In this document: positions 2,751-32,321 of the stretch, one piece after another | Layout: each line of letters starts with the position of its first letter | Numbering within the stretch: position 1 is the stretch's first letter | Source of the DNA: Planococcus rifietoensis | Lineage (GTDB): Bacteria > Bacillota > Bacilli > Bacillales_A > Planococcaceae | DNA: 64,000 nucleotides | NCBI RefSeq assembly: GCF_001465795.2 | Contig: NZ_CP013659.2 | Coordinates: 1,506,501 to 1,570,500 of the forward strand | Direction: 5' to 3' | Notes under the pieces: generated by a model | What the model saw: only the letters and a program-made list of their open reading frames with translations | Told to the model about the DNA's origin: nothing | Database searches by the model: none | Translations under genes and position numbers: made by a program

Positions 2751-5579
2751 TCATTTCGATTTAGCTAGAGCTTCATCGATGATGCGTGCCTGTTCGACTT
2801 TATGTGACTCGCCGTCGCCTTCTGCAGGGCTCTGGCGCTTCATGCGTCCGTAGTATTTCACTTCTTTGCCATCTGCGAGTTCACGCAAGTAAGGGTCGGC
2901 AAATGACCAAGATCCCATATTTTGCGGCTCTTCCTGGACCCAAGCCAATTCCTTGGCATTCGGGTAGCGGTCGACAATCGCTTTGATTTTTTCGGCCGGG
3001 AATGGATACAACTGCTCAACGCGGACAATATGCGCCCACTCGTAGCCTTTTCCGTCTTTGACGCGTTCTGCCAAATCGATGGCCATCTTACCACTAGCGA
3101 ATAGCAAGCGTTTCACTTTCTTCGCATCCTGCCCCATGCCCGGCTGTTCGATCACTGTCTCGAACTTGCCTTGTGCCAACTGGTCGACTTCAGCCCCAAC
3201 AAGCGGGTGTCTTAGAAGTGACTTCGGCGACACGATGATCAATGGGCGGATCGCTTCTTCCCCAAGCATTTTCGCCTGGCGGCGGAGAATGTGGAAATAG
3301 TTTGCTGCGCTGGATAGGTTAGCGACTGTCCAGTTGTTTTCTCCAGCCATCTGCAAATAACGCTCAAGACGTGCACTGGAGTGTTCCGGACCTTGTCCTT
3401 CATAGCCGTGCGGAAGCAGCATGACCAGGCCGGATTTTTGGCCCCATTTTGCGCGGCCGGACGAAATGAATTGGTCGAACATGACTTGTGCCATATTGGC
3501 GAAATCTCCATATTGAGCTTCCCAAATGACTAAAGCTTTGTCGTTCTCTACGTTATAGCCGTATTCGAAGCCAAGAATGGAAGCTTCACTTAGCGGGCTG
3601 TTGTAGACGACGAATGATGCTTTCGAGTCGGAAATGTGGTGAAGCGGAACAAGTTCGTTGCCGTTCTTCTCATCATGCAGCACAAGATGGCGGTGTGCGA
3701 ATGTCCCGCGCTGTGCATCTTGCCCTGTCAGGCGGATCGGGTTGCCTTCTTGTAAAATGGCACCGAAAGCCAAAGTTTCTGCATGGGCCCAATCGATTTT
3801 GCCTTTTCCTTTGAATGGCTCTTCGCGGCGTTTCAGGATGCGCGCCAATTTGCCGAATGCGGAAAAGTCTTGCGGCCATGACAATAATTCATTGTTCATC
3901 TTCTCAAGGATATCTTTGCCAACGCCCGTCTCGATTTCTGGGAAGCCGTTCAAAACAGCTTCCGGCATCTCTAACTTCGGATGATCGTCGGATTTGTTTT
4001 CTTTTACTTTGTCATAAGCTTCTTGCATCACTTTTTGGATGTCTGCATCAAGCTTTTTGACTTCATCTTCTGAAAGTACGCTTTCAGAAGCCAATTGTTT
4101 TCCGTACAATTCACGGACCGTATCGTGCTGATGAACGCCGTGATACATCATCGGGTTCGTCACTAACGGCTCATCCATTTCATTGTGGCCGTAACGGCGG
4201 TAGCCGATCAAGTCGATCAAAATGTCTTTGCCGAATTTCTCGCGGTATTCAAACGCTAAGCGTGCAACGGCTACAACAGCTTCCGGATCGTCTGCATTGA
4301 CGTGCAATACTGGAACTTCAAAGCCTTTTGCCGGGTCGGATGAATAATGCGTGGAGCGGGAATCGTGCTGTTCCGTCGTAAAGCCGATCAGGTTATTGGC
4401 GATGATATGAATCGATCCGCCAGTCTGATAGCCTTTAATGCGGCTAAAGTTCAATGTCTCGGTCACGATGCCTTGACCCGGGAATGCTGCGTCGCCGTGT
4501 ACAAGGATTGAATAGGCTTTATTCGGCTCATGTGATGCCAAGCCGCTCTTGGAAGTCATTTCCTGTGCAGCGCGTGTTTGCCCCGTGACGATCGGGCTTA
4601 CGACTTCCAGATGGGATGGGTTATAGGCAAGCTTGATTTTCGTTCCTGCTTTCGAACTGTGTGCAGCACCCATATGATACTTCACATCGCCGAACCAGCC
4701 TTTAGTGATCTCGAGCGATCCGTCTTCCGGAAGGAACGCTTCATCACCGACATGGGCGAATCCTGCGAACATCATTTCATACGGTTTATGGAGGATGTGC
4801 GTCAAGACATTCAAACGCCCACGGTGGGCCATGCCGATCATGATGTTTTCAGTGCCAGCAGATTCAGACATGCGGACCAGTTCATCCATCAAGACGACAA
4901 GCGAATCGACGCCTTCGATAGAAAAGCGTTTTTGCCCGACGAATGTACGGTGGACGAACTTCTCAAATCCTTCAACGCGCGTCAAAAGATCCAATACCTG
5001 TTTTTTCTTGTCGGCATCGAGTTTCGGCTTCATATCGCCCGCTTCGATTTTCGACTGTATCCAGCTGCGTTCCTGCGGTTGGATAACATGCGCGAATTCG
5101 TAAGCGATTTTGTCCGTGTAAAGCGATTTCAGGTAATTGATTGCATCCAGGCCGTTTTTCACTTCGGCTGGAGCGTTTTCCAGGATTAAGGATACTGGGA
5201 CATCTTTCAAATCGGCTTCAGTCAAGCCGTATTTTGAAATTTCCAGTCTTTCTGTATCCCGCGGCTGGTCTTCCAATGGATAGATATCTGAAGCCAGATG
5301 GCCGTGTGCACGGATCGCTTCCGCCAAATTAACCGCTGCGAGCACTTTTTCAAAACGGTTGGGTTCGACTGCCACACCGGCTGAAGCGACACTAGCATCG
5401 CCTGTCTGTACAGCAGGCTGCTCTGCAGGCGGGCCGTATTGTTTGAATAGCTCTGCAAACTCAGGATCGATCAATTCAGGGGATTCCTGGTAAAGGTCGT
5501 ACATCTCCATTACGTAGCCTAAGTTCGGGCCGGTTATGGAATTCCATGGGGATTTTGTGTCCGGTTGATTGGTAGACAT
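2751..5579 (-). CDS. odhA: 2-oxoglutarate dehydrogenase E1 component
   Basis: 942 residues. This thiamine-diphosphate enzyme decarboxylates 2-oxoglutarate and succinylates the lipoyl arm of OdhB. Seen: the N-terminal E2-contact helix region (GYVMEMYDLYQ), a first catalytic half with MIGMAHRGRLNVL and HGDAAFPGQG (TPP binding), and a C-terminal transketolase-like half with LLPHGYEGQGPEHSSARLER. Length is typical of Bacillus OdhA. The ATG at 5579 was chosen over the ATG at 5615 because GGAGG lies 7 bases upstream of it. It is first gene of the odhA-odhB operon. A promoter and a cre-like site lie upstream, suggesting carbon catabolite control. Confidence 0.97.
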   Translation of the reverse strand: MSTNQPDTKSPWNSITGPNLGYVMEMYDLYQESPELIDPEFAELFKQYGPPAEQPAVQTGDASVASAGVAVEPNRFEKVLAAVNLAEAIRAHGHLASDIYPLEDQPRDTERLEISKYGLTEADLKDVPVSLILENAPAEVKNGLDAINYLKSLYTDKIAYEFAHVIQPQERSWIQSKIEAGDMKPKLDADKKKQVLDLLTRVEGFEKFVHRTFVGQKRFSIEGVDSLVVLMDELVRMSESAGTENIMIGMAHRGRLNVLTHILHKPYEMMFAGFAHVGDEAFLPEDGSLEITKGWFGDVKYHMGAAHSSKAGTKIKLAYNPSHLEVVSPIVTGQTRAAQEMTSKSGLASHEPNKAYSILVHGDAAFPGQGIVTETLNFSRIKGYQTGGSIHIIANNLIGFTTEQHDSRSTHYSSDPAKGFEVPVLHVNADDPEAVVAVARLAFEYREKFGKDILIDLIGYRRYGHNEMDEPLVTNPMMYHGVHQHDTVRELYGKQLASESVLSEDEVKKLDADIQKVMQEAYDKVKENKSDDHPKLEMPEAVLNGFPEIETGVGKDILEKMNNELLSWPQDFSAFGKLARILKRREEPFKGKGKIDWAHAETLAFGAILQEGNPIRLTGQDAQRGTFAHRHLVLHDEKNGNELVPLHHISDSKASFVVYNSPLSEASILGFEYGYNVENDKALVIWEAQYGDFANMAQVMFDQFISSGRAKWGQKSGLVMLLPHGYEGQGPEHSSARLERYLQMAGENNWTVANLSSAANYFHILRRQAKMLGEEAIRPLIIVSPKSLLRHPLVGAEVDQLAQGKFETVIEQPGMGQDAKKVKRLLFASGKMAIDLAERVKDGKGYEWAHIVRVEQLYPFPAEKIKAIVDRYPNAKELAWVQEEPQNMGSWSFADPYLRELADGKEVKYYGRMKRQSPAEGDGESHKVEQARIIDEALAKSK

Positions 5580-5705
5580 TGAATAACCTCCAACTATTTG
5601 CCTTATGGCATTCACTTTTATTTATAGGTCTTTCCTATTTTAGCACGCCCCTCGCCTGACTTAAAGCTGCAGGGCTGTAGCGGTACTGAACGAATTTCCA
5701 TATCA

Positions 5706-5733
5706 ATCTTACTACTTCCACTGAAAAAAACAA
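5706..5733 (-). promoter_or_regulatory. candidate sigma-A promoter for odhAB
   Basis: On the minus strand a -35 TTGTTT (5728-5733) and a -10 TAAGAT (5706-5711) are separated by 16 bp. Transcription would start near 5699, about 120 bases before the odhA ATG. This is pattern matching only. Confidence 0.5.
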
Positions 5734-5766
5734 TGCTTTTGATTGAAAAGATTCGGCTAAAGCGCA

Positions 5767-5780
5767 TTGAAGCGCTTACA
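5767..5780. promoter_or_regulatory. candidate cre (CcpA) operator upstream of odhA
   Basis: The 14-mer TGTAAGCGCTTCAA (minus strand) matches the consensus TGNAANCGNWNNCA at every defined position except one. It lies upstream of the -35 element of odhAB, at roughly -70. TCA-cycle genes are often under CcpA control in Bacillales. The binding is inferred. Confidence 0.5.
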
Positions 5781-5823
5781 TGCACATAAGGCAGCAGAAT
5801 TCCCGTATTTTAATGGAAGAAAC

Positions 5824-7470
5824 TTATGCTTCACCGTGAAAACAAACGATGCCGCCGCCTTTTTTCTTCGCCTCATAGAGCGCATGATCGGCTTTTTGGA
5901 TCAGCTCCTCGAATTCGCTTCCGTCTTCCGGATACAAGGCGCTGCCAATAGAGCACGTCGGCGAGAATTGCCGGCCATTAATGACCCATCCGTCTTTTAA
6001 GGTTTGCTGGATGCGGGAGATGATGTTCTCAATCTGTTTGCGGCTATTGATTGCGGAGATGCCAGGCAGCAGGATGAGGAATTCATCTCCGCCGATACGC
6101 GCCGCCACATCGTGTTTTCGGATACTGCGCTCAAGCGCGCGGGCGAATTGGTGGATGAATTCGTCGCCAATTTCGTGGCCGTGCAGGTCGTTGATTTCCT
6201 TGAAATTATCGCCATCTATGTACAAAACAGCGACTTGGTCTCCCGTCCGGTTGCTCTTGGCTTCCATTTCACGGAAATGCTTGACCATCATCCGGCGGTT
6301 CGGCAAATTCGTCAACGGGTCGTGATACGCCATATGATGCAATTGCTCTTCCATTTCCTTGCGGTCAGTGATGTCGAATAAGATAGACAGCATTTGATAG
6401 ATGCGCCCTTCAACATCAAACAGCGGAATGATCGTAGCGTCCACCCAGAACGGCTGGCCATTCTTCTTCAAGCTGCGCACTTGCCCGCGCCAGATCTCGC
6501 CTTTTTTCAGGACGGACTGGAGATGGGCGAGCTGCTGGCCGGACATGATGGCTTGGCCGATCGACTGGATATTCATCCCAGTCAATTCACTGCTGTCAAA
6601 GCCCGTCAACTTCTTGAAATTTTCATTGGCAAATTCAATCATACCGGAGATATCCCAAATGAGTACGAGCGCTGCGTAATTCAGTGCATCTTTGTAGCTT
6701 TCCAGAATATTCTCCGTCCGTTTCAGTTCATGCTTCAATAATAATTCATTCGTTAACTCACGGAACACGACATGAAAAGCACGGATGATCCCGTTTTCCT
6801 TGATCAATGAATAACTGGCCGAAAACTTTGCCTCGCGCCCGTCACTTTTGATCCGGCTTAAAAAAATCGAACTCGCTTTATGGGTGCTTGTGCTGTTTTC
6901 AAGCAGAAGCTTGCCCATTTCGAAAAATTTCTGCTTGTCCTGCGGGATGTCGTCGTAATTACGGCCGAGCCATTCCTTTCGGTGCACGCCGAAGGTCTTT
7001 TCGTAAGCCGGGTTCATATCAAGGATCGTAAAATCGGCTGAGATCATCAACATCGGGTCGACTGAATTCTGGACGAGCGATTGATAGAACAGATAATCCT
7101 CTTCGATTTTCTTTTGTTCAGTCACATCTCTCGTGATAGCCAGCACGTATTGCACACCCTCATGCTTAAATGGGGTCAGCTCGGTTTCCATCGCGGTTCC
7201 CCGGTCTGAGAACAAGCTATAGTCCCTGTACAGATGGCGTTCATTGCGCTTGATCGCAATCCGGTATTGCTTGTGGATTTCAAGCGCCAATTCCCGGGGC
7301 ATGCTTTCTTCTACGCTGCGCCCCGTCAAATCGACCCCGAAAATCTCACGGCAAACCGGATTGACCCAAGCGTAAACAAAGCCGTTGCCCTGCTGTTGCA
7401 TGAAATAGACCGGGTCGGCCGCTTTCCCGTATAGCATATCCATTTGCTCTTTCGTAAAAGGTCCCGACAT
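5824..7470 (-). CDS. diguanylate cyclase with three PAS domains (PAS-PAS-PAS-GGDEF)
   Basis: About 548 residues, soluble. Three PAS-like sensor domains (roughly 10-120, 130-245, 260-390; the first two joined by the VTEQKKIEEDY linker and the third ending in FDITDRKEMEEQL) precede a GGDEF domain from about residue 395. The catalytic motif IGGDEF near residue 460 is intact, and an RxxD inhibitory site (RKHD) lies five residues before it, so it should make cyclic di-GMP with product feedback. No membrane segment is seen, so it would sense a cytosolic or diffusible signal. The ATG at 7470 has GGTGG five bases upstream; a GTG at 7479 is possible. It lies 18 bp after dapF and probably shares its transcript. 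Confidence 0.9.
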   Translation of the reverse strand: MSGPFTKEQMDMLYGKAADPVYFMQQQGNGFVYAWVNPVCREIFGVDLTGRSVEESMPRELALEIHKQYRIAIKRNERHLYRDYSLFSDRGTAMETELTPFKHEGVQYVLAITRDVTEQKKIEEDYLFYQSLVQNSVDPMLMISADFTILDMNPAYEKTFGVHRKEWLGRNYDDIPQDKQKFFEMGKLLLENSTSTHKASSIFLSRIKSDGREAKFSASYSLIKENGIIRAFHVVFRELTNELLLKHELKRTENILESYKDALNYAALVLIWDISGMIEFANENFKKLTGFDSSELTGMNIQSIGQAIMSGQQLAHLQSVLKKGEIWRGQVRSLKKNGQPFWVDATIIPLFDVEGRIYQMLSILFDITDRKEMEEQLHHMAYHDPLTNLPNRRMMVKHFREMEAKSNRTGDQVAVLYIDGDNFKEINDLHGHEIGDEFIHQFARALERSIRKHDVAARIGGDEFLILLPGISAINSRKQIENIISRIQQTLKDGWVINGRQFSPTCSIGSALYPEDGSEFEELIQKADHALYEAKKKGGGIVCFHGEA

Positions 7471-21963: not shown

Positions 21964-22109
21964 TAAACATCACCCTCAATTTTGAACATTTTGTCAAGAT
22001 AGTTATAGTAATAAACGATTTTTAAGTGGAAAGGTTTCATCTTGTTCCATTTCATTGTACAATAAAGCGAGTAAGTACGCCTTGTTTTTTTCAAAAAGGA
22101 GGAATTTTC

Positions 22110-22187
22110 ATGGACGCGTCATTATTGATTGGATTGGGTCTATTGTTTATGCTTGTGTATTTGACTTCGCTATCCTTTACAGACTAA
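22110..22187 (+). CDS. 25-residue hydrophobic peptide (putative single-span membrane miniprotein)
   Basis: Twenty-five residues, MDASLLIGLG to TSLSFTD, almost entirely hydrophobic. An excellent ribosome binding site (AAAGGAGGAATTTTC) lies six bases before the ATG, and a strong terminator starts right at the stop codon. That combination argues for a real gene. It should insert as one transmembrane helix. I do not recognise it. It is the only plus-strand gene between thyA and the accessory island. It could be a membrane regulator, a leader peptide or a toxin-like peptide; nothing decides between these. Confidence 0.6.
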   Translation: MDASLLIGLGLLFMLVYLTSLSFTD

Positions 22188-22219
22188 AAAAATCTCCCGC
22201 TTTGGGAGATTTTTTTATT
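22187..22219 (+). terminator. Rho-independent terminator of the miniprotein gene
   Basis: AATCTCCC / GGGAGATT stem with loop GCTTT and a run of seven T. The same 30-bp hairpin is repeated at 22391-22423. Confidence 0.9.
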
Positions 22220-22250
22220 ATGTCGAGAAAGGTAAGAAGCCGTATTTTCC

Positions 22251-22298
22251 GAAGCTTATCGCTCGCTTTCCGCGGGCGGGAATCGAGCGATAAGCTTC
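22251..22298. repeat. 48-bp palindrome (15-bp perfect arms)
   Basis: GAAGCTTATCGCTCG is followed after 18 bases by its exact reverse complement. The centre (CTTTCCGCGGGCGGGAAT) resembles a GC-rich repeat core that I recall as common between genes in Bacillales and Planococcaceae. It lies between the two copies of the terminator. The rest of 22219-22390 has no gene. Confidence 0.7.
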
Positions 22299-22390
22299 TC
22301 CAAACACTAAACCACATCATTGATTTTTGAATGCGGAAAAGATAATCTTTGTTTAATTTATAATGGATTTCAGACTTCTTCAACACTCCG

Positions 22391-22423: not shown

Positions 22424-23202
22424 TGGCTCTTATTCATTTGTATGACGCCGAAATGGAATTTCGTATTTGGGCGCACGCGCCGATTGAAGCCGAACGCCTC
22501 AAAATCAGTCGAGCGGAAATGCGCTTTCAAGACGACGCTTTTCCTTGCAACGCGCTTCGCTTCCTCTACCCATTCCTCCGTCAATTGCCCGTGGTCTGCA
22601 TTGTTTCTAAGCGGCGCGAAGTTTGATGCTTCGGCAATCTGTTCCGTGAACATCGGATCCATATAAACGACATCGAAGGAATTATCATCAAGCCCTTTCA
22701 AATAATCGACTGCATTTTGAGAGGCGACTTGAATGCGCCTCATCGAATCGTGCAGTTTCGGCATATCCTGATAATTTTTCAAGCCTTCACGGATGATATG
22801 GGCGATGACCGGGTCGCTTTCACAGCCAATCACTCTTCCGGTGTCCCCAACGACAAGCGAAGCAATGAGCGCGTCACTCGCCATGCCGAGCGTGCAATCC
22901 AGATAGGCATCGCCTGCCTCAAGTCCAGACACTTCAACGAGTGGATCGTTTCCGAGCGGCCGCTTCGAGCGAAATGCCGCCGAATTGGGATGAAAAAAGA
23001 ACGGCTCGCTTTGTCCGACTGGATAAAGTTCGAGCCGTTCTTTTTTGCAGACGATGACGTCCGCTGCTAGTTCTTCGTGCAGTTTGTAGACCGGCCGCTT
23101 ATTGCGCTCGACTGCCTGCAGGCCAAGGAACTGTGCGGTCTCTTGTGCACGGCGCTTGGTCGCATCCGTCGGCCGGTAAGCGGTCGTGACGATCGTCTTC
23201 AC
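22420..23202 (-). CDS. ypiP: class I SAM-dependent methyltransferase, YpiP-like
   Basis: 260 residues. Seen: the glycine-rich SAM loop variant LDCTLGMASDALIAS with an acidic residue at the end of strand 2 (GCESDPV), and the catalytic-type motif VVYMDPMF (DPPY-like with the second position changed). I recall B. subtilis YpiP as the homologue, lying beside yphP (brxA), as here. Substrate unknown; the DPxF motif suggests an amino group on a nucleic acid base. The ATG overlaps the brxA stop by four bases, so translation is coupled. Confidence 0.85.
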   Translation of the reverse strand: MKTIVTTAYRPTDATKRRAQETAQFLGLQAVERNKRPVYKLHEELAADVIVCKKERLELYPVGQSEPFFFHPNSAAFRSKRPLGNDPLVEVSGLEAGDAYLDCTLGMASDALIASLVVGDTGRVIGCESDPVIAHIIREGLKNYQDMPKLHDSMRRIQVASQNAVDYLKGLDDNSFDVVYMDPMFTEQIAEASNFAPLRNNADHGQLTEEWVEEAKRVARKSVVLKAHFRSTDFEAFGFNRRVRPNTKFHFGVIQMNKSQ

Positions 23203-23633
23203 TGCGCTGCTTCCTCGATCGCTTGTTTCACGGCATCACGCACTTGTTCCATCTCAAAGCCTTCGATTTCTTCGCGTGGAATAAAATGCGCAAGCTGCCC
23301 GTCTTTTACGACCGCGATTGAAGGAGACGATGGCGGCACTTCCTCAAAATACTGGCGCATCTGTGCTGTCGCTTCTTTGTCCTGTCCTGCAAATACTGTT
23401 ACCAAATGGTCAGGTTTATGTTCAGCCAATTCCACCGCTTCGCGTACCGCTGGGCGTGCAAGTCCTGCGGCGCATCCGCAGATCGAGTTGATGATCACGA
23501 GGCTCACGCCTTGTGAATTGCTCATATGTTCGTTGACGTCTTCTGCCGTCGTCAGCTCCGTAAATCCGGATTCCGTCAGTTCTTTGCGCATTGGGACGAC
23601 AATGCCTTTCATGTACTCATCGTATGCTTGCAT
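23199..23633 (-). CDS. brxA: bacilliredoxin BrxA/BrxB family (YphP)
   Basis: 144 residues. These thioredoxin-fold proteins remove bacillithiol from oxidised protein cysteines. The active site is CGC in NSICGCAAGLARP (about residue 48), the hallmark of the YphP/YqiW family; FAGQDKEATAQMR and PPSSPSIAVVKDG also fit. The ATG at 23633 was chosen because it has AGG seven bases upstream and matches YphP N-termini; an ATG at 23651 lacks a site. First gene of a brxA-ypiP pair. Its role implies the organism makes bacillithiol. Confidence 0.92.
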   Translation of the reverse strand: MQAYDEYMKGIVVPMRKELTESGFTELTTAEDVNEHMSNSQGVSLVIINSICGCAAGLARPAVREAVELAEHKPDHLVTVFAGQDKEATAQMRQYFEEVPPSSPSIAVVKDGQLAHFIPREEIEGFEMEQVRDAVKQAIEEAAQ

Positions 23634-23845
23634 GGTTTCGCCTACTTTCATAAGTTTGTGTTTTCGATTAATTTAAAGGAGGTGTTCACCGTTTACTATA
23701 ACTTAGTTTAACGAACTTTTATATCTTGCCGTTTTAAATGTGGTTTTTTGTTAGTATTTAAGTACTCGGTTTCTTCTAAAATGTTAGTGAATCTACTCTT
23801 TGATTTTAACATGAGTCCATAAAAGTTAAGGTCTTCATACTTTCT

Positions 23846-24067
23846 TCAAAGTACGGATAACCTGATCAATCTAACGGACTGATATAATTTCATCAACACC
23901 CAATTTTGTTCAGATAGGGAATCATTGTAAACGATTATGCTATTGTGTAAATCTAGTTCAATGATTTTCCCTGTATGATAGTAGAACTGGAAATCTTTCC
24001 AGATTTGAATTTTAGCTTCGCATTTTTGCATCATTGCAATTTGTACATTTTCCTGCAACGAGTGCAA
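23846..24067 (-). pseudogene. small ORF, possibly the end of a YolD-like gene
   Basis: 73 residues from a TTG. The pattern of alternating hydrophobic strands (CEAKIQIWKDF, GKIIELDLHNSIIVYND, VRLIRLSVL) recalls the C-terminal half of YolD-like proteins, which accompany Y-family polymerases. A good AAAGGTGAGGA sequence lies upstream, but the first in-frame codon at the correct spacing is ATC, and the usual N-terminal half is missing. It may be a truncated gene. Assignment is weak. Confidence 0.3.
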
Positions 24068-24214
24068 ATGGAACTCATCTAATTCGGTTCTGACGATTTT
24101 GTTGTCCTCACCTTTCTATTCTCTTAGCATACCCCGAAGTTATAGCAGCATTCAAAAGTGCGTGTAGGTACTATAGTGATTCAAGCAGTATGAGACTACG
24201 CATTATATAATAAC

Positions 24215-24258
24215 AAAGTCCCTCATTGCTGATTTTCACAGTCAATACGAGGGGGTAT
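24215..24258 (-). terminator. possible terminator of the two-gene cassette
   Basis: CCCTCGTATTGACTG and CAGCAATGAGGG form an imperfect stem just after the membrane-protein stop; the following T-run is short. Confidence 0.4.
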
Positions 24259-24261
24259 TTT

Positions 24262-24885
24262 TCACTCATCATAATCTGCTACGAATAATACATATCGATA
24301 TAATAAAGTTGCATTACGAAGTGAAATGATAATTGTAAACAATATTGCTCCCAACCATAGAGCTCCTAGTAAACTTAAAGGTATTGTTACTGCAAGTCCT
24401 GATAGGAATGAAAATGAAGAAGCAATTCCGCTAAAGCTATTTGAAATTACTTCTAATATCAATCCACCTATTAAAACAATCAACTGAATGAGAATAGCAA
24501 ATGAAAAGAATGAAACTAACTGTTTAAGTAGTGTACCATCGCCATTTTCAACAGTATGTTGTCTCAAGAACTTCAATACACTACTATTACTGGCAGCGAT
24601 AATTGCTAAACTAGTAGTGTTAAATCCTGCTAAAATAGCTATTACTGTTAATGCATCTGAATTCATATCTATAACAATTCTTAATAGTTCGGCATTCGAG
24701 ATATCGATTAATAAAAAAGTACTGAATACAATTATTGACGCAATAATAGGTATGCCCAAAAATGTTTTGAACTCAAAGGAAGTAGTGTATTTCTTATAAT
24801 TCGTTAAAACTTCTTTGAAATCTCTCCCAGGTTTATTGTAATCATCTGTCTCCTTAACTTTACCTGTTCTCTTCGTCCCGCTCAT
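24262..24885 (-). CDS. four-helix membrane protein of a two-gene cassette
   Basis: 207 residues. A charged cytoplasmic N-terminus of about 40 residues is followed by four hydrophobic segments (about 43-63, 75-98, 125-150 and 160-190) and a short tail. The start ATG (24885) lies inside the end of the upstream gene (26-bp overlap) with its own GGGAG ribosome binding site, so both are made together. I recognise no family. A four-helix membrane protein coupled to a cytosolic partner is the architecture of RexB/RexA and of several phage-exclusion pairs, where it acts as an ion channel. That parallel is structural only. Confidence 0.7.
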   Translation of the reverse strand: MSGTKRTGKVKETDDYNKPGRDFKEVLTNYKKYTTSFEFKTFLGIPIIASIIVFSTFLLIDISNAELLRIVIDMNSDALTVIAILAGFNTTSLAIIAASNSSVLKFLRQHTVENGDGTLLKQLVSFFSFAILIQLIVLIGGLILEVISNSFSGIASSFSFLSGLAVTIPLSLLGALWLGAILFTIIISLRNATLLYRYVLFVADYDE

Positions 24886-25876
24886 CTATTATCACTCCCT
24901 CGTACTGTGCATTATAAACTTTAGCACCTAAAGGATTGTCTCTTAGCGCTATCCGAGACATGCCATTAATTAAGTCGCTAAGTGATGGAATGCCACTCTC
25001 ATTAAACTCAACATCTACGTCGAAAGCTCTCTGGATATTTTCTAACTCTATTGTTTTTGTTCTCCCTGAATGCAATTTTCCGTTAACGCCTAAACCATCA
25101 AAATAATCAGCTTCGAATAGCCTTCTAAAGTAATTCTCAACCCCAGTCACCGAGCGCTTAGGGATTTTGTTTTCAAAAGAAATTTTCACCCTTGTTACAT
25201 CCTGCATTCCGTTTTCCTCTGCCCGATTGTGCAAATAAAGTAAATTAGAAACTTCATTACTTGTCGCCGCTGTTTCTGAAATATCTAGATAATAATAAGC
25301 TTCTTTTATAGACGCGAACTCACCAATTTCTTCGAAAAAAGTTCTATTTGGAAGACTTGCGATTTTCAAGAAATTATTTTTATGAATTTTAATAGGATCG
25401 TTCTGGTTATTGAAAGCAGATTGATACTCCACAATTTTGTCTTTGTGATAACGAATAAATTTACGAATCATTTGTCCTGCAGCCACTTGTTCGGAGTCCT
25501 TTTCTACTAATAGTAACCCTGTTCTAGAATCTACAGTAAAATGAACTTCATTCTTCATTCCATGATTTCTAGGTTTAGTGCCTGCCCCAGTCTGTTCCTC
25601 GACATCAAGAATTTCTTGCTCTTTGCCGTATCGAGCGGTTGTGAAGATTCCTTCCCAGATAAATGCATCATCCGATTGTTCGAAGGAAATTAAATTTATC
25701 ATCTTTGTTTTTTCCCTGTTTTTAAAGGCTCTTTGCTTAATTGGAATCGTATCAATAATATTTTTAAAAAAGAAGTGGAAGGTTTCAAAATCAAACCTAC
25801 CAAAATCATAATTTGTTCCTTGAAACTTTGGTGTAGTGAGTTCATATCCATATATAGTTACTAATCTATTTTCCAT
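24860..25876 (-). CDS. cytosolic protein of a two-gene cassette, RexA-like architecture (unrecognised)
   Basis: 338 residues, no membrane segment and no catalytic motif I can name. The N-terminal third is mixed beta/alpha with a possible FHFFFKNIIDTIPI helix and EGIFTTARYG; a central part is helical; the C-terminal third carries RVKISFENKIPKRSVTGV. Start ATG 25876 follows AAAGGGTGCGA; an ATG at 25906 has no site. First gene of the pair with the membrane protein, in an island with prophage and IS debris. By organisation it could be the sensor of a Rex-like abortive infection module. It could equally belong to an unnamed family; confidence in function is low. Confidence 0.7.
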   Translation of the reverse strand: MENRLVTIYGYELTTPKFQGTNYDFGRFDFETFHFFFKNIIDTIPIKQRAFKNREKTKMINLISFEQSDDAFIWEGIFTTARYGKEQEILDVEEQTGAGTKPRNHGMKNEVHFTVDSRTGLLLVEKDSEQVAAGQMIRKFIRYHKDKIVEYQSAFNNQNDPIKIHKNNFLKIASLPNRTFFEEIGEFASIKEAYYYLDISETAATSNEVSNLLYLHNRAEENGMQDVTRVKISFENKIPKRSVTGVENYFRRLFEADYFDGLGVNGKLHSGRTKTIELENIQRAFDVDVEFNESGIPSLSDLINGMSRIALRDNPLGAKVYNAQYEGVIIDERDEENR

Positions 25877-25891
25877 TTCGCACCCTTTCCG

Positions 25892-25968
25892 GGTCCCGTC
25901 TAACAAATGATTTTACTCTATTCTGCAATGAATAATTGAATAGATATGAGAGTATGACGAACGGGACC
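25892..25968. repeat. inverted repeat ggtcccgt / acgggacc upstream of the cassette
   Basis: Two 8-bp arms (25892-25899 and 25961-25968), 61 bases apart, flank the likely promoter region of the two-gene cassette. They could be operator half-sites or a transcript hairpin. Chance cannot be excluded. Confidence 0.35.
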
Positions 25969-26084
25969 TTCCTTTAAGACTTTTTCACGCTTTCTAATTG
26001 TATCATAATGGTAATTTTCTACAATTTCATTTCATTAAAAAAACCACTAACTACTTAGGTTCACTGACCTAGAAGCATGAGACA

Positions 26085-26152
26085 AATAAAAACCTCTTTC
26101 GTTGAAAAACGGGAATGAAAATACCAATAAATCAACATGGAGGTGTTTTTCT
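26085..26152 (+). repeat. IS3-family leader hairpin (second copy)
   Basis: AACCTCTTTCGTTGA pairs with TCAACATGGAGGTGTT, with the inner part CGGGAATGAAAATACC. It occupies the same place and shares core bases with the hairpin at 11086-11147, while the arms differ in a mostly pairing-preserving way. It lies directly before orfA. Confidence 0.65.
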
Positions 26153-26562
26153 GTGGCGACAAGAGTCAGTTATCCAGTAGAAGTCAAGATGAAGGCGATT
26201 GAAATGAGGTTGGCGGGGATACTCGTCAAAATAGCTCTAGAGGAATTGAATATCAAAATCCATTCCCAGCTGAAAACGTGGATGAAATGGCACCGAGAGG
26301 GAGCGCATAAGCGATTCTATCAACCTGTAGGTAAACATTATGCCTACGGCAAAGGAACTGAAAATGAATCGGAAACCGTGCGACTCTAGGTCGATAATCA
26401 CTCCTTAAAACAACAGATTGACGTGTTAAAAAAGTACAAGGAATTGGAGAGAAAGTGGTTGGAGTAGCGTTTTTCAAACTGGTCGGAGAGTCAAAGGGAA
26501 CGATGTCCATCCAACTCATCTGCAAGCATCTGGGCGTTGCGCGCTCAACGTATTATCTCTGA
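26153..26562 (+). pseudogene. IS3-family transposase orfA and orfB fragment
   Basis: From the GTG at 26153 (GGAGG nine bases upstream) the frame reads MATRVSYPVEVKMKAIEMR, a helix-turn-helix orfA start, through LKTWMKWHREGAHKR to QPVGKHYAYGKG, then stops at 26389. Further on, other frames give KYKELERKW and ICKHLGVARSTYY, the typical beginning of an IS150-type orfB. Stops and frameshifts separate these pieces and the integrase core is missing. Confidence 0.7.
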
Positions 26563-26589
26563 AAAAACAACAGAAATAAAACCGCGGGA

Positions 26590-26979
26590 ATAGTTGAACA
26601 AGATCAAGCCATCAGCCAGCTGTACACAGTTCTCTAAAATCGATAATCCTTCGTTCACGATAAAGAAAACCGCAACGCCTAGAATCAACAGGCCTTTTAT
26701 GTCCTGACCCATGTGAATAAAAAAGTATTCGACGCCGGCAGCCCTAGCCTAAACAAAGAATACTGTGAATTTCTTAATAAGGTTCGCCAGTCCGAGTTTG
26801 CTATTTAATGATTTCTTCATACACGCTCGAAGCAGTCCAGTAATCATATCTAGAAACGAAAAAAACAATAGTACGACGGTGGCGGCATCAATCAAGCCTA
26901 CCAGATAAACTGCAAAGTTTGTAATCGTAGCCTTGATTCCTTTTACCGCCACGACCTCCCATATGAGAATATTCTTCAC
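26590..26979 (-). pseudogene. phage holin, broken
   Basis: The first 76 codons encode a phage holin-like N-terminus with a hydrophobic helix (LVGLIDAATVVLLFFSFLDMITGLLRA) and SLNSKLGLANLIKK, then a stop at 26749. Downstream the reading continues in the same sense as YFFIHMGQDIKGLLILGVAVFFIVNEGLSILENC, which is the normal second half of such holins. A stop codon (and small lesion) therefore splits the gene. Its 3' end is lost at the junction with the IS remnant. It shows a prophage lysis module once lay here. Confidence 0.7.
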
Positions 26980-27024
26980 CCTCTCTCATATCTAAATCTC
27001 CCTTGCATATCATCTTTTGAGTAT

Positions 27025-27052
27025 ATAAAAAGAGCGTCCCTGGAGACACTCT
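27025..27052 (-). terminator. Rho-independent terminator after the 56-aa gene
   Basis: AGAGTGTC / GACGCTCT stem (one G-U pair), loop TCCAGG, then five T on the minus strand. Confidence 0.75.
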
Positions 27053-27081
27053 AAAGAATATTTCAGTTATTCTAATAAATT

Positions 27082-27252
27082 TTATGCATTACCTAAACTT
27101 CCAATCTGAACGTCTTGCTCTGATACTCCTTCAATTCTTGCGATTTCTTCTTTCGCATACTGATCCTCTAAACCTTCCAATTCTAAGGTTTTATACTTGG
27201 ACTCTGAACCGTATTTACTTAATATTTTATATTCAACATTTACTTTAGCCAT
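27082..27252 (-). CDS. unrecognised 56-aa protein in prophage remnant
   Basis: Fifty-six residues, MAKVNVEYKI to GSLGNA, acidic, no membrane segment. A strong AGGAGGTGAGTAA site precedes the ATG, and a terminator follows. It is intact although the flanking phage genes are broken. It lies 127 bp downstream of the 278-aa gene, same strand, so the two may form one unit. I do not recognise it. Confidence 0.6.
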   Translation of the reverse strand: MAKVNVEYKILSKYGSESKYKTLELEGLEDQYAKEEIARIEGVSEQDVQIGSLGNA

Positions 27253-27379
27253 TTACTCACCTCCTATAATTGTTATTTGCTGAGTATCAAAAGGACTTCT
27301 TTTTAATAAGCTTTATCGGAATTTCTTACTTTCACTTTTTCTGTAAATCAAAGAGTGACCTTTGCAAACATTTTGGTAA

Positions 27380-28216
27380 TCATTTAAATTCTTTTTGAGA
27401 ATAGTAAAGGTAAGCATAGTCTTTGAGTTCTGGAGGAAGGCTTCTTGGTTTTAGTGACATCTCCGAGCTAACATTTATTGAAGATAGAAGACCTACCGCC
27501 AATCCAGTCTCAAAAGTATACTGTCCAGTAAAACTACCCAAAACTGTAGTTCCAGTTTTGGCCGCCATATCTTTCCAATCGAATTCTATTTTAAGACTTT
27601 GTGCTAGCCGACTCATGAATGACTCTTCCATTAAGCGATCTATCTCTTTTGTTTTTCTAGCAAGTAATTCTAGGCTTTTAAGCTTATCCCTTTCTTGATC
27701 TCCGGAGTTCACAATATCTAAATACAAATTATCGATTAAGCTTCTAAATTCTAGTAGTTCATCTTTTCTTTTCTCTTTAAATTCTAGAATATCTACAAGA
27801 GGTACATCTTTTTCTGGTACTGGGAGACTTTGATATAATTCCACCTCAATATTCCGGCTCATTATCCCACTGACCTCGTCAAGAACTAAATTATAGTGAG
27901 GTTGTGCTAATGACCAACTTCCAACTTCTTTTTCATTATTTAGTCTAAATGCTTCCATCTGACTTTTTAAAAAAAGGTTTGTAAATTCTCCAGCCATTTG
28001 TAGGTTAACTCTTGATCTTTTTAATGCACCAGTCGATTCTAAAAAGTCTGTATCAGCAGTTCCTCCGAAGGTTATTATATTACTTGTAGGAAAATCAATC
28101 TGATCCCAGTAAAGCAAGTATTGTCGTAACTTTATAGGTGCAATAGTGCCTCCATTTACACTCATCGAATTTTTTCCGCTCATAACTATTTCTGGCGAAA
28201 CTACAATCCCTCTCAT
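27380..28216 (-). CDS. unrecognised 278-aa protein, probable prophage cargo
   Basis: 278 residues, intact, with GAGGAGGG seven bases before the ATG. It starts RGIVVSPEIVMSGKNSMSVNGG, has a charged helical middle (KEKRKDELLEFRSLIDNLYLD and KSLELLARKTKEIDRLMEE) and ends with a hydrophobic patch (TGLAVGLLSSINV). There is no signal peptide and no catalytic motif that I can name. It sits between degraded tail-end genes and a broken holin, the place where phages often carry accessory genes. Its intact frame among decayed neighbours suggests selection. Function unknown. Confidence 0.65.
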   Translation of the reverse strand: MRGIVVSPEIVMSGKNSMSVNGGTIAPIKLRQYLLYWDQIDFPTSNIITFGGTADTDFLESTGALKRSRVNLQMAGEFTNLFLKSQMEAFRLNNEKEVGSWSLAQPHYNLVLDEVSGIMSRNIEVELYQSLPVPEKDVPLVDILEFKEKRKDELLEFRSLIDNLYLDIVNSGDQERDKLKSLELLARKTKEIDRLMEESFMSRLAQSLKIEFDWKDMAAKTGTTVLGSFTGQYTFETGLAVGLLSSINVSSEMSLKPRSLPPELKDYAYLYYSQKEFK

Positions 28217-28292
28217 ATGAATCCCTCCTCTTGTTATTTAAATTTTACAATAGGAAGAGGTTTCCTTCAATTTCATTTTTTTCTAATTTCGT

Positions 28293-28421
28293 TTACTCAA
28301 CCATAAATCCCATACCGCTATCCAACAAAATCTTTTTCACTTGCAGCTGCAACATAGCCGATACTTCTGCGAACGTCATTTTCTCCAAAATCATTCGTTG
28401 TGCCATCAACATCGCCCTCAT
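28293..28421 (-). CDS. small phage tail-end protein, 42 aa
   Basis: Forty-two residues, MRAMLMAQRM to GMGFMVE, with an ideal GGGAGGTGAAATC before the ATG. The pattern AQRxIxxxKxTFxxVxxxLQxQVKxxLxDxGxG is one I associate with tiny proteins found between tail-fibre genes and holins in Bacillales phages. Function unknown. Because of the frameshift in the gene before it, a longer frame from 28628 now runs into this one without a stop. Confidence 0.6.
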   Translation of the reverse strand: MRAMLMAQRMILEKMTFAEVSAMLQLQVKKILLDSGMGFMVE

Positions 28422-28459
28422 GATTTCACCTCCCGTCAAAAACATCAGTAGTTTGAGTA

Positions 28460-28628
28460 TCACTTGTACACCAGCTGCGCCATTTCTACCAAGCAAGCAT
28501 TCTGCCACGAAGTCGGCTCGATCACCTAATGCACGAGCCTGAGCTCGAAGGACTTCGACTTCGGATGGGATGAACGGTTGGGGTTCTGGAGCTTCTTCGT
28601 CTCCCACATATTTGGTGCCGTCCCACAT
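28460..28628 (-). pseudogene. phage tail-end gene (XkdW-like position), frameshifted
   Basis: Codons from WDGTKYVGDEE through QPFIPSEVEVLRAQARAL to FVAECL look like the conserved short protein encoded after tail fibres in Bacillus prophages. After the C-L codons a directly repeated CTTG (near 28487-28494) shifts the frame. In the shifted frame the normal ending VEMAQLVYK and a stop at 28460 appear. The upstream sequence lacks a ribosome binding site, so the gene is dead at both ends. Confidence 0.65.
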
Positions 28629-28959
28629 TGACCAGCAGAAACCTGATAGAAAATATAGCGATATGACATTGGAGACTTATTGACTTTGAACAGATTGGGA
28701 AACGTATTGTTCTGACATTGTTAAGTAAATCAGCTAGTAGTTGGATAGTTCGAAGTGTTATCGATTTTCTGGTTGGCAATACCATTTAAGTCCCATCGAC
28801 AGCTGCCCAAAGATATGTGACATGTCCGAAGACTTTCTAAAATCATGCGTAGCCATTCAGACAATGTTTAAAATGTTACTAGGCATTATCAAATCCTTTT
28901 AAACCAGATGAAATTCTGTAGGAATGAATTCTGAGGGCTTACCAAACATCTTCTCCACT

Positions 28960-29380
28960 ATCGATATCGTCCAGGAAAGTTAAGTTCAAATCACCCTCCT
29001 ATTTCACAGTTTCCTTAAACATTTCAAGATGCTTGTCGATCATTTCGGTTGCTTTGTCTACATTACTGCTATCGAATTAATAATCACTGGGAGGAACAAG
29101 TTGCTGCTCACTGTAATATCATTCCATAACCGGTTCTGCCTACATGGCTCTGTCTGAAATGTCTAGTAAGTGTATAAGCATCTAGTAAGCTTTTAAATTT
29201 AAACGATCAGCACGAATTTTCTTTAATTCTTCTATTCGCGCGGATGTAAACATTCTGCACCATTGGGACTTCACCGCCTTCTTACTGTATCAATGTCGAA
29301 TAGCCGCTGTGTAACGTTCAAATCAATCAAATACTCATCAATAAACATCTGTTGCTTTTACGTAAACTTTACCATCTACA
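28960..29380 (-). pseudogene. degraded prophage tail/baseplate gene fragments
   Basis: Several frames give recognisable phage-tail type pieces in the expected order: VVDGKVYVKATDVY and, one frame over, DEYLIDLNVTQRLFDIDTVRRR (about 29300-29380); ARIEELKKIRADRLNLKAY (about 29190-29250); then EQQLVPPSDY and DSSNVDKATEMIDKHLEMFKETVK with a stop (about 28998-29100). Each is cut by stops or frameshifts. They precede the other tail-end genes on the same strand. Between 28629 and 28960 I see no feature. Confidence 0.55.
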
Positions 29381-29411
29381 ACCAACTTTGAGGTTATTCA
29401 CCAATTTTCAG

Positions 29412-29439
29412 ACATAAAAAACATCCCTAAGGATGTTTT
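29412..29439 (-). terminator. Rho-independent terminator after the 86-aa gene
   Basis: AAAACATCC / GGATGTTTT stem with a 5-base loop, then TTTATG on the minus strand, seven bases after the stop. Confidence 0.8.
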
Positions 29440-29445
29440 AATTGA

Positions 29446-29706
29446 TCATTCTAATACACGGATAGCTGGACTTTGATTTTTCACTTTCTTATTCATTACT
29501 TTATTGTGATCAACTTGAACCGCGAAAATTTCTGCACACATTTGTTCAGAGAAGGGAGTGTGAACAACCATTTCAACTTGGTACCATTCAGAGTCCTCTG
29601 AAATAGTTAAATATTCATCTTCAATTGGAAGTCTTTCGAAATTGTAATACTGATTACTGAAATCCGATTCACCATCACTGTGTAAGTGTACGAACACTTT
29701 AGCCAA
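29446..29706 (-). CDS. unrecognised 86-aa protein (second gene of a pair)
   Basis: 86 residues, beta-rich and acidic, starting at a TTG with a strong AAAGGAGG ten bases upstream. Begins AKVFVHLHSDGESDF and contains QVEMVVHTPFSEQMCAEIF. No known motif is seen. It starts 20 bp after the 107-aa gene and has its own terminator, so the two form a compact pair. Such a pair could be a toxin-antitoxin or immunity module, but nothing in the sequence proves this. Confidence 0.6.
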   Translation of the reverse strand: MAKVFVHLHSDGESDFSNQYYNFERLPIEDEYLTISEDSEWYQVEMVVHTPFSEQMCAEIFAVQVDHNKVMNKKVKNQSPAIRVLE

Positions 29707-29726
29707 TTTAAATTGCCTCCTTTGCT

Positions 29727-30050
29727 TTAGAAACCTAATTTCTTCACTACATATTCTTTGCCTGCGGTTGAAAACATATCTTTCCAGCTTTCAAACTTAC
29801 TCTGTTGCCGTATGTATTCATCCAATCGTTTTTCATCGATACTTTCAAATTCTTTTTGAGTCTCAAACTCAAAAGGACTCTCTTCAAAAAAATCGGTGAT
29901 ATTTGTGAAGTTCGTATATCTTGTCATGAAATTCTGAGTAAACAAATCTTTGAAGTCTACAGAGCTAGTTTCATTTATTTCTTTAGCTCCACTTTCAATT
30001 TCTTTGAACCTCTTGTCTAATTGCTTTGATACCTTAATACGTTTAGACAT
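29727..30050 (-). CDS. unrecognised 107-aa protein (first gene of a pair)
   Basis: 107 residues, strongly charged and mostly helical. The N-terminus (SKRIKVSKQLDKRFKEIESGAKEI) is basic and amphipathic; the C-terminus ends GKEYVVKKLGF. GGAGGGGG lies a few bases before the ATG. A basic N-terminal helix could bind nucleic acid, as in many antitoxins, but I recognise no domain. It is followed closely by the 86-aa gene. Confidence 0.6.
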   Translation of the reverse strand: MSKRIKVSKQLDKRFKEIESGAKEINETSSVDFKDLFTQNFMTRYTNFTNITDFFEESPFEFETQKEFESIDEKRLDEYIRQQSKFESWKDMFSTAGKEYVVKKLGF

Positions 30051-30189
30051 TTCTACACCCCCTCCTATACAATCATTCTATATAAGGAAAATAAATACCT
30101 TTTTTACATATGCGTAATTCAGACTTGCTAGAGATTCGAGAGTGACAATTCATTTAAACAGATATAGTTTTACCTCTTTGTTAGACATA

Positions 30190-30216
30190 ATAAAAAGCAC
30201 CTCCTAAGAAATGCTT
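30190..30216 (-). terminator. Rho-independent terminator after the 100-aa gene
   Basis: AAGCATTTC / GAGGTGCTT stem with two G-U pairs, loop TTAG and TTTTTATT on the minus strand. Confidence 0.65.
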
Positions 30217-30235
30217 GAACACCTGTATGCAAAAA

Positions 30236-30538
30236 TCATTTTATATTCTCGAATACCCATCTTACTATTTTCGGATAAGTGTCCACAGCGAACCAGGTTT
30301 CAGATGCATAGGATGCCACAACTCCTACCGGTAGCTCACCTAAATAAGTTTCAACTATTTTTAATTGAGTAACGCCTTTTGCAGCATTTTCTTTATTCTC
30401 CTCTAAATACACGTGCTTGCTAAATTCATTTATAATTGCTCTATAAACATTCCCAGCCTCTTCTTCGGTGTCAAAGTCCCAAGATTTTTCATCATCACCA
30501 TTGCTGGTTGATAATATATAAAATGGGTTGGCTTTCAT
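30236..30538 (-). CDS. 100-aa protein, distantly similar to the gene at 33143
   Basis: 100 residues, acidic, cytosolic. The N-terminal half (SWDFDTEEEAGNVYRAIINEFSKHVYLEE) follows the same pattern as residues 18-46 of the protein at 33143-33445 (SWEFEKEDERDRFYESVKKKFADHAFEEE), so the two are probably distant relatives of one small family. AAGGTGAG precedes the ATG and a terminator follows. Function unknown. Confidence 0.65.
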   Translation of the reverse strand: MKANPFYILSTSNGDDEKSWDFDTEEEAGNVYRAIINEFSKHVYLEENKENAAKGVTQLKIVETYLGELPVGVVASYASETWFAVDTYPKIVRWVFENIK

Positions 30539-30618
30539 CTTCTCACCTTCCTTTACTAAATAACATAATTTAATTCTACAGAGAAGTAACCAATACCTTT
30601 TAATATAAATAAACCATA

Positions 30619-30822
30619 TTAGAACCTTATTAGAAACATTTGATAAACTAAAAATAAAAACAATAGGCTTGCACCAACACCTCCAATATATTTGGGTACC
30701 TTAAGTATATTAAGAATTTCTACTACAACCAACATAACTATAAAAGGTAAAAGCAATACCACTACTATATGCATGACGAACTCATTCATCATTGGCTGGA
30801 AAACACTAAAATCTATTTCCAA
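30619..30822 (-). CDS. small membrane protein, 67 aa
   Basis: 67 residues with two long hydrophobic segments (about 17-37 and 46-65) joined by a short basic loop (LKVPKYIGG). It starts at a TTG with a very strong AGGAGGTGAGG upstream. Both ends would be on the same side of the membrane. Function unknown. Confidence 0.6.
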   Translation of the reverse strand: MEIDFSVFQPMMNEFVMHIVVVLLLPFIVMLVVVEILNILKVPKYIGGVGASLLFLFLVYQMFLIRF

Positions 30823-30911
30823 AGATCCTCACCTCCTACACAATACATATCGGTTGATAAGAGTATTTAGTTTAGAGACAAAGAAAATAACACATCCGAA
30901 GAGTTGGTTTT

Positions 30912-31421
30912 CTACGATTTTTCATATCCAAGTTTACTAATCTCTTTCAGAAAACCTTGTTTATTTTTTTCGTAATCAGTTAGCTTTAATTTTAATGTTT
31001 CTCCGATAGATACCCAATCGCCTGTAAAGTCATGTCGTAACGAGACAATAATACCTGTCACCAATACTAACATTTCATAGAAATCATCTTTTTCAGATTC
31101 TCGGTAGTTGTAGGCTTGATAATTAGCAAGCCTTCTCACGGTTTCTGGAGATGAGTATAGATAAGTTTGTTTGATTAGGTTTTTTAGATGAACAGAATCT
31201 GCCATTCTTTTTTTAACTTTAGGATCATCGTTAGACATCAACATATCGGTCCACTGATTTAGGATCTTATGCATGTCTTCACCACTTCTATTACGGTAGT
31301 AATTCGATATTTGCAAATATTTTGTGTCTGCAAACTGTTTTTTATTTTCAATGAGTTTCCATATAATATTTACTATTGCAGTTACCACGCTGCTAGTTAA
31401 AACCAGGATTATCCAATCCAA
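30912..31421 (-). CDS. membrane-anchored helical protein, 169 aa
   Basis: 169 residues. An N-terminal transmembrane helix (IILVLTSSVVTAIVNIIW, residues 4-21) is followed by a soluble, charged helical domain of about 140 residues. It starts at a TTG with AAGGAGAGG upstream. I recognise no family. Small genes downstream on the same strand (30822, 30538, 30050) each have their own ribosome binding site but are separated by gaps of 90-190 bp. Confidence 0.62.
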   Translation of the reverse strand: MDWIILVLTSSVVTAIVNIIWKLIENKKQFADTKYLQISNYYRNRSGEDMHKILNQWTDMLMSNDDPKVKKRMADSVHLKNLIKQTYLYSSPETVRRLANYQAYNYRESEKDDFYEMLVLVTGIIVSLRHDFTGDWVSIGETLKLKLTDYEKNKQGFLKEISKLGYEKS

Positions 31422-31486
31422 TTTAAATCCTCTCCTTCTTGCTTAATATTAACAAATAAAGTAATTATCATGGGAGGAATTTAAAA

Positions 31487-31570
31487 ATGATTTTCGGTAC
31501 TTCACACTGTAGTGGAGCTATTCAACTTCCCGAACCTATAATTAAGTGTAAAACAAAAAATAAAAAATGA
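31487..31570 (+). CDS. doubtful 27-aa ORF, possibly frameshifted
   Basis: GGGAGGAATTTAAAA precedes an ATG; the frame reads MIFGTSHCSGAIQLPEP and stops after 27 codons in an A-rich stretch. A shift within AAAAAA would continue it as NDEIEQITHLEHFSKM to VMRYLGI, about 56 residues in total. It may be a decayed small gene or none at all. The minus strand of the following region carries a competing remnant (31644-31830). Confidence 0.25.
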   Translation: MIFGTSHCSGAIQLPEPIIKCKTKNKK

Positions 31571-31643
31571 TGAAATTGAACAAATAACACATCTAGAACA
31601 TTTTTCAAAAATGATTTTTATTAAAGAATCTGTAATGCGTTAT

Positions 31644-31830
31644 TTAGGGATATGAGATAGCCTCATACGAAGACCAATCCATTTCAGATTTATCAAACAT
31701 TATATTTTTCATATTTGGCTTCGTCACCCGTATGAGTTCTTCTGCTTAAGTACGTTTTTATTCTACTCGAATCCTTGTCCTTCCATTTGCCACCAAACTC
31801 CAGCTTCTCATCACTGTCAAAAGCTACCAT
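31644..31830 (-). pseudogene. frameshifted gene fragment
   Basis: Minus-strand frames give MVAFDSDEKLEFGGKWKDKDSSRIKTYL and, after a one-base shift, AEELIRVTKPNMKNIMFDKSEMDW to a stop at 31644. The two halves join naturally, so this is probably the tail of a gene broken by a frameshift. I do not recognise the family. The rest of 31422-31898 holds nothing else I can support. Confidence 0.35.
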
Positions 31831-31898
31831 AATAATTTAAAACCTGATAGGCATTCCCCAGCTTCTGATAAACTGAAGCTAAAAAGGAAGTGAATCGT

Positions 31899-32321
31899 AT
31901 GAAACCAAGAATCTCTGTCATTACCATTGGTGTGGATGATCTTAAGCGATCGCTGGAATTTTACCGAGACGGCCTGGGCTTACCGACAGAAGGAATTGTC
32001 GGGGAAGAGTTCGATAACGGAGCCGTGGCCTTTTTCGATCTACAGCCAGGGCTGAAACTTGCCATTTGGAAACGCCAAGACATCGCCCACGAAACGAAAG
32101 TATCGATTGGGCCGCCAAGTCCTACAGAATTCACTCTCGGCCATAACGTCAACAGCAAAGCCGAAGTCGATGCGGCAATTGCCCAGGCTGAACAAGCGGG
32201 AGCCATTATAACCGATCCGGCTCACGATACCTTTTGGGGCGGTTACTCTGGCCATTTCCAAGATCCGGACGGCCATTTATGGGAAATTGTATGGAATCCT
32301 GCATGGGGAGAAGTGGATTAA
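31899..32321 (+). CDS. glyoxalase/bleomycin resistance (VOC) family protein
   Basis: 140 residues. A vicinal-oxygen-chelate fold protein with two beta-alpha-beta-beta-beta repeats: SVITIGVDDLKRSLEFYRDGLGLP at the start and the closing GHFQDPDGHLWEIVWNP. Metal-ligand positions look partly kept (E in LWEIVWN). Reaction unknown; such proteins include lyases, dioxygenases and drug-binding proteins. The ATG at 31899 has AAGGAAGTG upstream. Base composition is back to the chromosomal average here, which marks the right edge of the AT-rich island. Confidence 0.85.
   Translation: MKPRISVITIGVDDLKRSLEFYRDGLGLPTEGIVGEEFDNGAVAFFDLQPGLKLAIWKRQDIAHETKVSIGPPSPTEFTLGHNVNSKAEVDAAIAQAEQAGAIITDPAHDTFWGGYSGHFQDPDGHLWEIVWNPAWGEVD

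Follow-up and report, generated by a model that had tools for sequence, protein, structure and literature searches.

The 64,000-nucleotide stretch of the Planococcus rifietoensis genome considered here (the window; NZ_CP013659.2, positions 1,506,501-1,570,500; coordinates below follow window numbering) carries two overlapping genes, A and B, which by predicted fold and architecture represent a RexAB-type exclusion module of a Bacillota lineage. The class is understood as in PMC12894663. The pair probably serves phage exclusion and derives from a decayed prophage; A would activate B upon infection by another phage.

Gene pair and its products

The pair is arranged as follows:
24860..25876, minus strand: gene A, open reading frame (ORF) from ATG, 338-amino-acid (aa) cytosolic protein with a RexA/RdgC-like predicted fold, putative infection sensor or DNA-binding partner
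24262..24885, minus strand: gene B, 207-aa four-helix membrane protein, putative channel or effector (ORF, structure model and hydrophobicity scan)
24860..24885, minus strand: overlap of A and B, 26 bp (from the ORF coordinates)

An alternative TTG start of gene A would move its 5' end to 25906. Shine-Dalgarno-like stretches are visible by eye 5' of B (GAGGGAG) and of A (AAAGGG). A Kyte-Doolittle scan gives no hydrophobic segment in A and four in B. An earlier sequence-only reading of this DNA had described the same two overlapping frames, a ribosome binding site before each, and the combination of a cytosolic protein with a four-helix membrane protein; all these points hold.

The structure model of A (predicted local distance difference test, pLDDT, 83.3) has lambda RexA (8TWQ) as its best solved structure match in Foldseek/VIA, clearly above the next unrelated rows, which is the outcome of the Foldseek comparison proposed in that reading. 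The two-domain RexA/RdgC fold predicted for A is that of the cytosolic partner in the RexAB-type class. No Pfam, PADLOC or NCBIfam family was found for A at E<=1, and the housekeeping family that the sequence-only reading had allowed for did not appear.

The model of B (pLDDT 84.3) consists of four long helices (residues 36-59, 64-97, 119-155 and 164-206), the second of which holds ILAGFN, the longest conserved run of the protein. Residues G87, F88 and R190 are present in all 17 aligned members, and the N-terminus, central loop and C-terminus are net positive on average across the family. Four hydrophobic segments were counted in 15 of the 18 complete B proteins; those of relatives L020, L031 and L032 (locus numbers of this analysis) have three, one of them long enough for two. 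A cognate four-helix membrane protein encoded adjacently is the second feature of the class.

Relatives and co-inheritance

Gene A is rare and patchy. With a single-protein query it was found in 2 of the 200 genomes searched at family level and 3 of the 261 at order level; a four-sequence profile recovered it from 6 of 398 genomes at class level and 2 of 398 at phylum level. The window genome is counted throughout. Phage and provirus records and contigs of named genomes supplied further loci. Altogether 19 distinct loci were obtained (the window, L003, L013-L022, L024, L025, L027, L028, L031, L032 and L113); same-element duplicates were left out, as was L112, in which the contig stops at A. 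The named hosts are Terribacillus, Salibacterium, Bacillus sp. J33, Brevibacillus, Pontibacillus, Paenibacillus and Sporolactobacillus, together with a Staphylococcus aureus phage. The Bacillota scope covers these hosts and the genomes classed in the window's phylum, and applies to the loci other than L021, L024, L025 and L113.

A hydrophobic B follows A directly in the 3' direction on the same strand at every one of the 19 readable loci, and this recurrence is more than chance; the sequence-only reading had considered that homologues might never occur as a pair. Both genes are complete at 18 loci, none of which has an inner stop. Eleven complete pairs overlap and seven are spaced by 0-24 bp when the first possible B start is taken (the L003 record annotates a later B start, giving a 17-bp overlap). 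The weakest locus is L018, where a contig edge cuts A and the listed B ORF has only 113 aa; its open frame extends further upstream, with no standard start where one would be expected.

Pairwise distances of A and of B are correlated (r 0.876, 0 of 20,000 permutations; 17 pairs, two alignments), which points to co-inheritance and not to contact. Nonsynonymous (dN) and synonymous (dS) divergence of A was 0.089 and 1.76 for L017/L032, and 0.097 and 0.56 for L003/L113. Silent sites were saturated for B of L017/L032 (dN 0.132, dS 2.74) and in both comparisons of the window with L021. Where they were unsaturated, selection is purifying.

Carriage by prophages

Carriage by temperate phages or prophages, the third feature of the class, was found at many loci. 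In L014, L016, L025 and L031 the pair lies between helix-turn-helix (HTH) regulators and an integrase or recombinase. These assignments were made by eye, except for the L014 integrase, which was confirmed by Pfam, as was an IrrE-like peptidase beside L014 and L016. L019 and L024 occupy a similar lysogeny-type position (by eye), and L003 is located on the integrase side of a Staphylococcus phage. Other pairs neighbour lysis genes: in L021 a holin is followed by an amidase and then by A, L022 has a convergent amidase, and in L028 a few small ORFs intervene between the pair and an amidase. In L013 B and a terminase-like region (by eye) have two genes between them. The stretches examined of L015, L017, L018, L020 and L032 contained no gene recognised as belonging to a prophage.

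L112 and L113 have A genes closely related to that of the Staphylococcus phage; in both, A stands behind a terminase-small-subunit-like gene, in a short element resembling phage-inducible islands (by eye). The most divergent pair, L020, has as neighbours (4512-6413) an ATPase-like protein and a small CxxC protein that resemble a Septu pair by eye.

The window pair itself is situated in an AT-rich island, whose landmarks are:
26979-26749 and 26712-26545, minus strand: phage holin remnant, Phage_holin_4_1 (PF05105), in two broken frames (Pfam E 2.2e-10 and 1.6e-5)
about 26062-26612, no strand assigned: insertion sequence (IS) remnant, 86% identity to DNA of relative L108 that overlaps an ORF resembling a transposase by eye
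23652..31889, no strand assigned: variable insertion site, from comparison of flanks among relatives
23199-23651: left flank, bacilliredoxin-like gene (named by eye)
31890-32321: right flank, glyoxalase-like gene (named by eye)

The fraction of G and C is 0.345-0.350 across the pair, 0.32-0.41 across 24-32 kb and 0.41-0.55 in the rest of the window. The holin remnant lies upstream of A on the same strand, with the IS remnant between them; the pair is at that end of a decayed prophage where the lysis module lies. The two flanking genes were searched in 25 genomes of the genus and were close together in eight, the window genome included. In these, the distances from the bacilliredoxin-like gene to an ion-channel-like gene are 0.71, 0.72, 3.6, 5.1, 7.4, 8.7 (window), 9.4 and 13.4 kb. 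The two shortest leave no room for an insert; the other six hold differing cargo, and some inserts contain degraded pieces common to the window. At E 1e-5, a nucleotide search with the A-B stretch gave no match in the remaining seven genomes with close flanks. The differing cargo and the lack of such a match indicate a variable site of prophage debris, with the pair as cargo. The AT-rich composition, IS remnant and prophage debris of the sequence-only reading are thus confirmed, and its reservation that homologues might not be enriched in accessory regions finds no support in this site or in the many relatives located in prophages.

Three further observations concern the surroundings of the pair. 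An AbiN-like protein (30912-31421, minus strand; PADLOC AbiN E 3.4e-31, phrog_8187) is encoded in the same island and is a second candidate abortive-infection gene there. The island also encodes a DUF6236 protein (27380-28216, minus strand; Pfam E 1.5e-76, phrog_23128). At 22055-22386 ORFs of both strands give similar translations, which suggests an imperfect inverted repeat.

Comparison with described Rex systems

The window pair matched none of the models PF15969, PF15968, PADLOC RexA and PADLOC RexB, and 13 A and 17 B proteins of the family (B against PADLOC only) did not match the lambda RexA/RexB models. By these profiles the pair is not in the lambda RexA/RexB sequence families. The lambda proteins match all four models, and proteins of CarolAnn, Butters, Toast and Sejanus match none.

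Lambda RexA/RexB share with the window pair the RexA/RdgC fold (predicted for A), a membrane partner encoded directly downstream and prophage origin; they differ in length (279/144 aa versus 338/207 aa) and in spacing (15 bp apart versus overlapping). CarolAnn, Sbash and Butters pairs are reported as defence systems (PMC6426596, PMC6426606 and PMC7542560). CarolAnn gp44/gp43 (370/178 aa) also overlap by 26 bp, and Sbash gp30/gp31 (372/165 aa) overlap by 41 bp, with two genes between the holin and the pair. The location of both, next to a repressor or shortly after a holin, is likewise similar; they differ in having actinobacterial hosts and no sequence similarity by hhalign. Mycobacteriophage Butters gp30/gp31 follow shortly after lysin and holin with one gene between; here too hhalign gives no sequence similarity, and the reported effector is gp30. 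In the mycobacteriophage Sejanus (gp46/gp45, gp46 annotated as RexA family) the order is HTH, RexA, small protein, IrrE-like protein, one gene and integrase. L014 and L016 come near to this order, with one additional gene between HTH and A; sequence and host phylum are different. RexABpp of Pseudomonas putida (PP_5643/5644) differs in belonging to Gammaproteobacteria.

Several points weigh against assignment to the Rex class. The global TM-score of the A model against RexA is only 0.29-0.38, and the structural match is therefore domain-wise. The B model has no solved structural relative, and B has no sequence link to RexB. Comparison of the new family with the RexA/RexB families by hhalign detected nothing, as did comparison of lambda with actinophage Rex. 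Window A is acidic (isoelectric point 5.5; 5.4-9.0 across 17 members), which is neutral on DNA binding. Finally, window A and B match neither model of the PADLOC candidate PDC-M53 discussed below. Since the Rex models miss the scanned actinophage proteins too and hhalign is blind throughout, the pair falls outside the sequence family and shows the features of the class as far as these are testable.

Relation to PDC-M53

PDC-M53 is an unnamed two-gene candidate, like A/B in its organisation, for which no mechanism was found. Of 17 B proteins, 7 are matched by its PDC-M53B model (best E 4.7e-8). Its PDC-M53A model matches one of the 13 A proteins scanned out of 17 (L020, residues 37-156, E 2e-4), where B gives no PDC-M53B match. 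A genome-level search placed PDC-M53B on B of L015 (4.6e-6), L014 (9.3e-5) and L024 (3.8e-4), and not on that of the window. These matches among relatives indicate that the family and PDC-M53 are probably related, in which case the Rex reading would extend to PDC-M53. The term PDC-M53 was not found in the literature searched; a survey of defence in the Bacillus cereus group mentions PDC-M systems. No description of a Bacillota Rex pair was found in that literature either (subscription journals and preprint servers not covered). The suggestion that the system is undescribed has to be qualified, as PADLOC already lists the probably related PDC-M53.

Proposed mechanism and alternatives

By analogy with the Rex literature, A would be a RexA/RdgC-fold cytosolic protein, probably dimeric, binding DNA or DNA-protein complexes. 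B would be an inner-membrane protein, silent in the uninfected cell. Infection by another phage would activate A, which could then contact B from the cytosol (at the N-terminus and central loop, on average positively charged in the family) and open it. The membrane would depolarise, and growth and phage replication would stop. The sensor and membrane-effector arrangement suggested by the sequence-only reading gains support from the predicted fold of A, the conserved co-inherited pair, frequent prophage carriage and actinophage-like gene orders.

The same layout could work the other way round: A would stop growth itself, and B would merely keep it membrane-bound, with release upon infection. 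Butters gp30/gp31 are reported to function so (PMC7542560 and PMC12894663), and the net-positive termini and central loop of B fit docking of an acidic A. However, the conserved run ILAGFN lies inside a helix, as in a channel and not an anchor, and the membrane protein is the reported effector in three of four non-lambda systems (RexABpp, CarolAnn and Sbash; PMC12894663), which makes this arrangement unlikely.

Somewhat less likely still, the pair could tune lysogeny, with A acting on the prophage's own switch and B modulating it. At least four distinct loci (L014, L016, L025 and L031) have the lysogeny-type position described above, and lambda RexA biases the switch to the lytic state (PMC11077077). 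However, at other loci the pair is remote from the switch, beside lysis genes or close to terminase genes, and in the window A and B stay open although the holin is broken.

KwaA/KwaB combine a four-helix membrane protein with a cytosolic one, and this likeness would allow B to sense membrane damage at infection and A to be a DNA-acting effector; the Kiwa-like scheme is very improbable, as the fold match of A is RexA and no Kwa model was among the PADLOC matches of 13 A and 17 B proteins at E<=1 (the Kwa models were not checked on known Kiwa).

Implications

According to PMC12894663, lambda Rex was the abortive system first linked to anti-phage defence, its activation is still unexplained, and only five systems are described. 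The RexAB-type reading of the window pair leads to a wider proposal, for and against which the balance is about even: the Rex fold with a four-helix module may be a broad, old class missed by sequence searches. In Bacillota it would be represented by a diverse lineage on prophages and terminase-bearing staphylococcal elements, including PDC-M53. The membrane effector of this lineage would not be related to RexB by sequence and would have ILAGFN conserved in a pore helix and an arginine invariant in the last one. Such a lineage would supply natural variants in easily handled hosts, in which swaps and mutants could probe how A senses and how B opens. For PDC-M53 the Rex reading offers a proposed mechanism. 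It also adds evidence that Rex pairs escape sequence-profile searches, and prophage defence is therefore probably under-counted.
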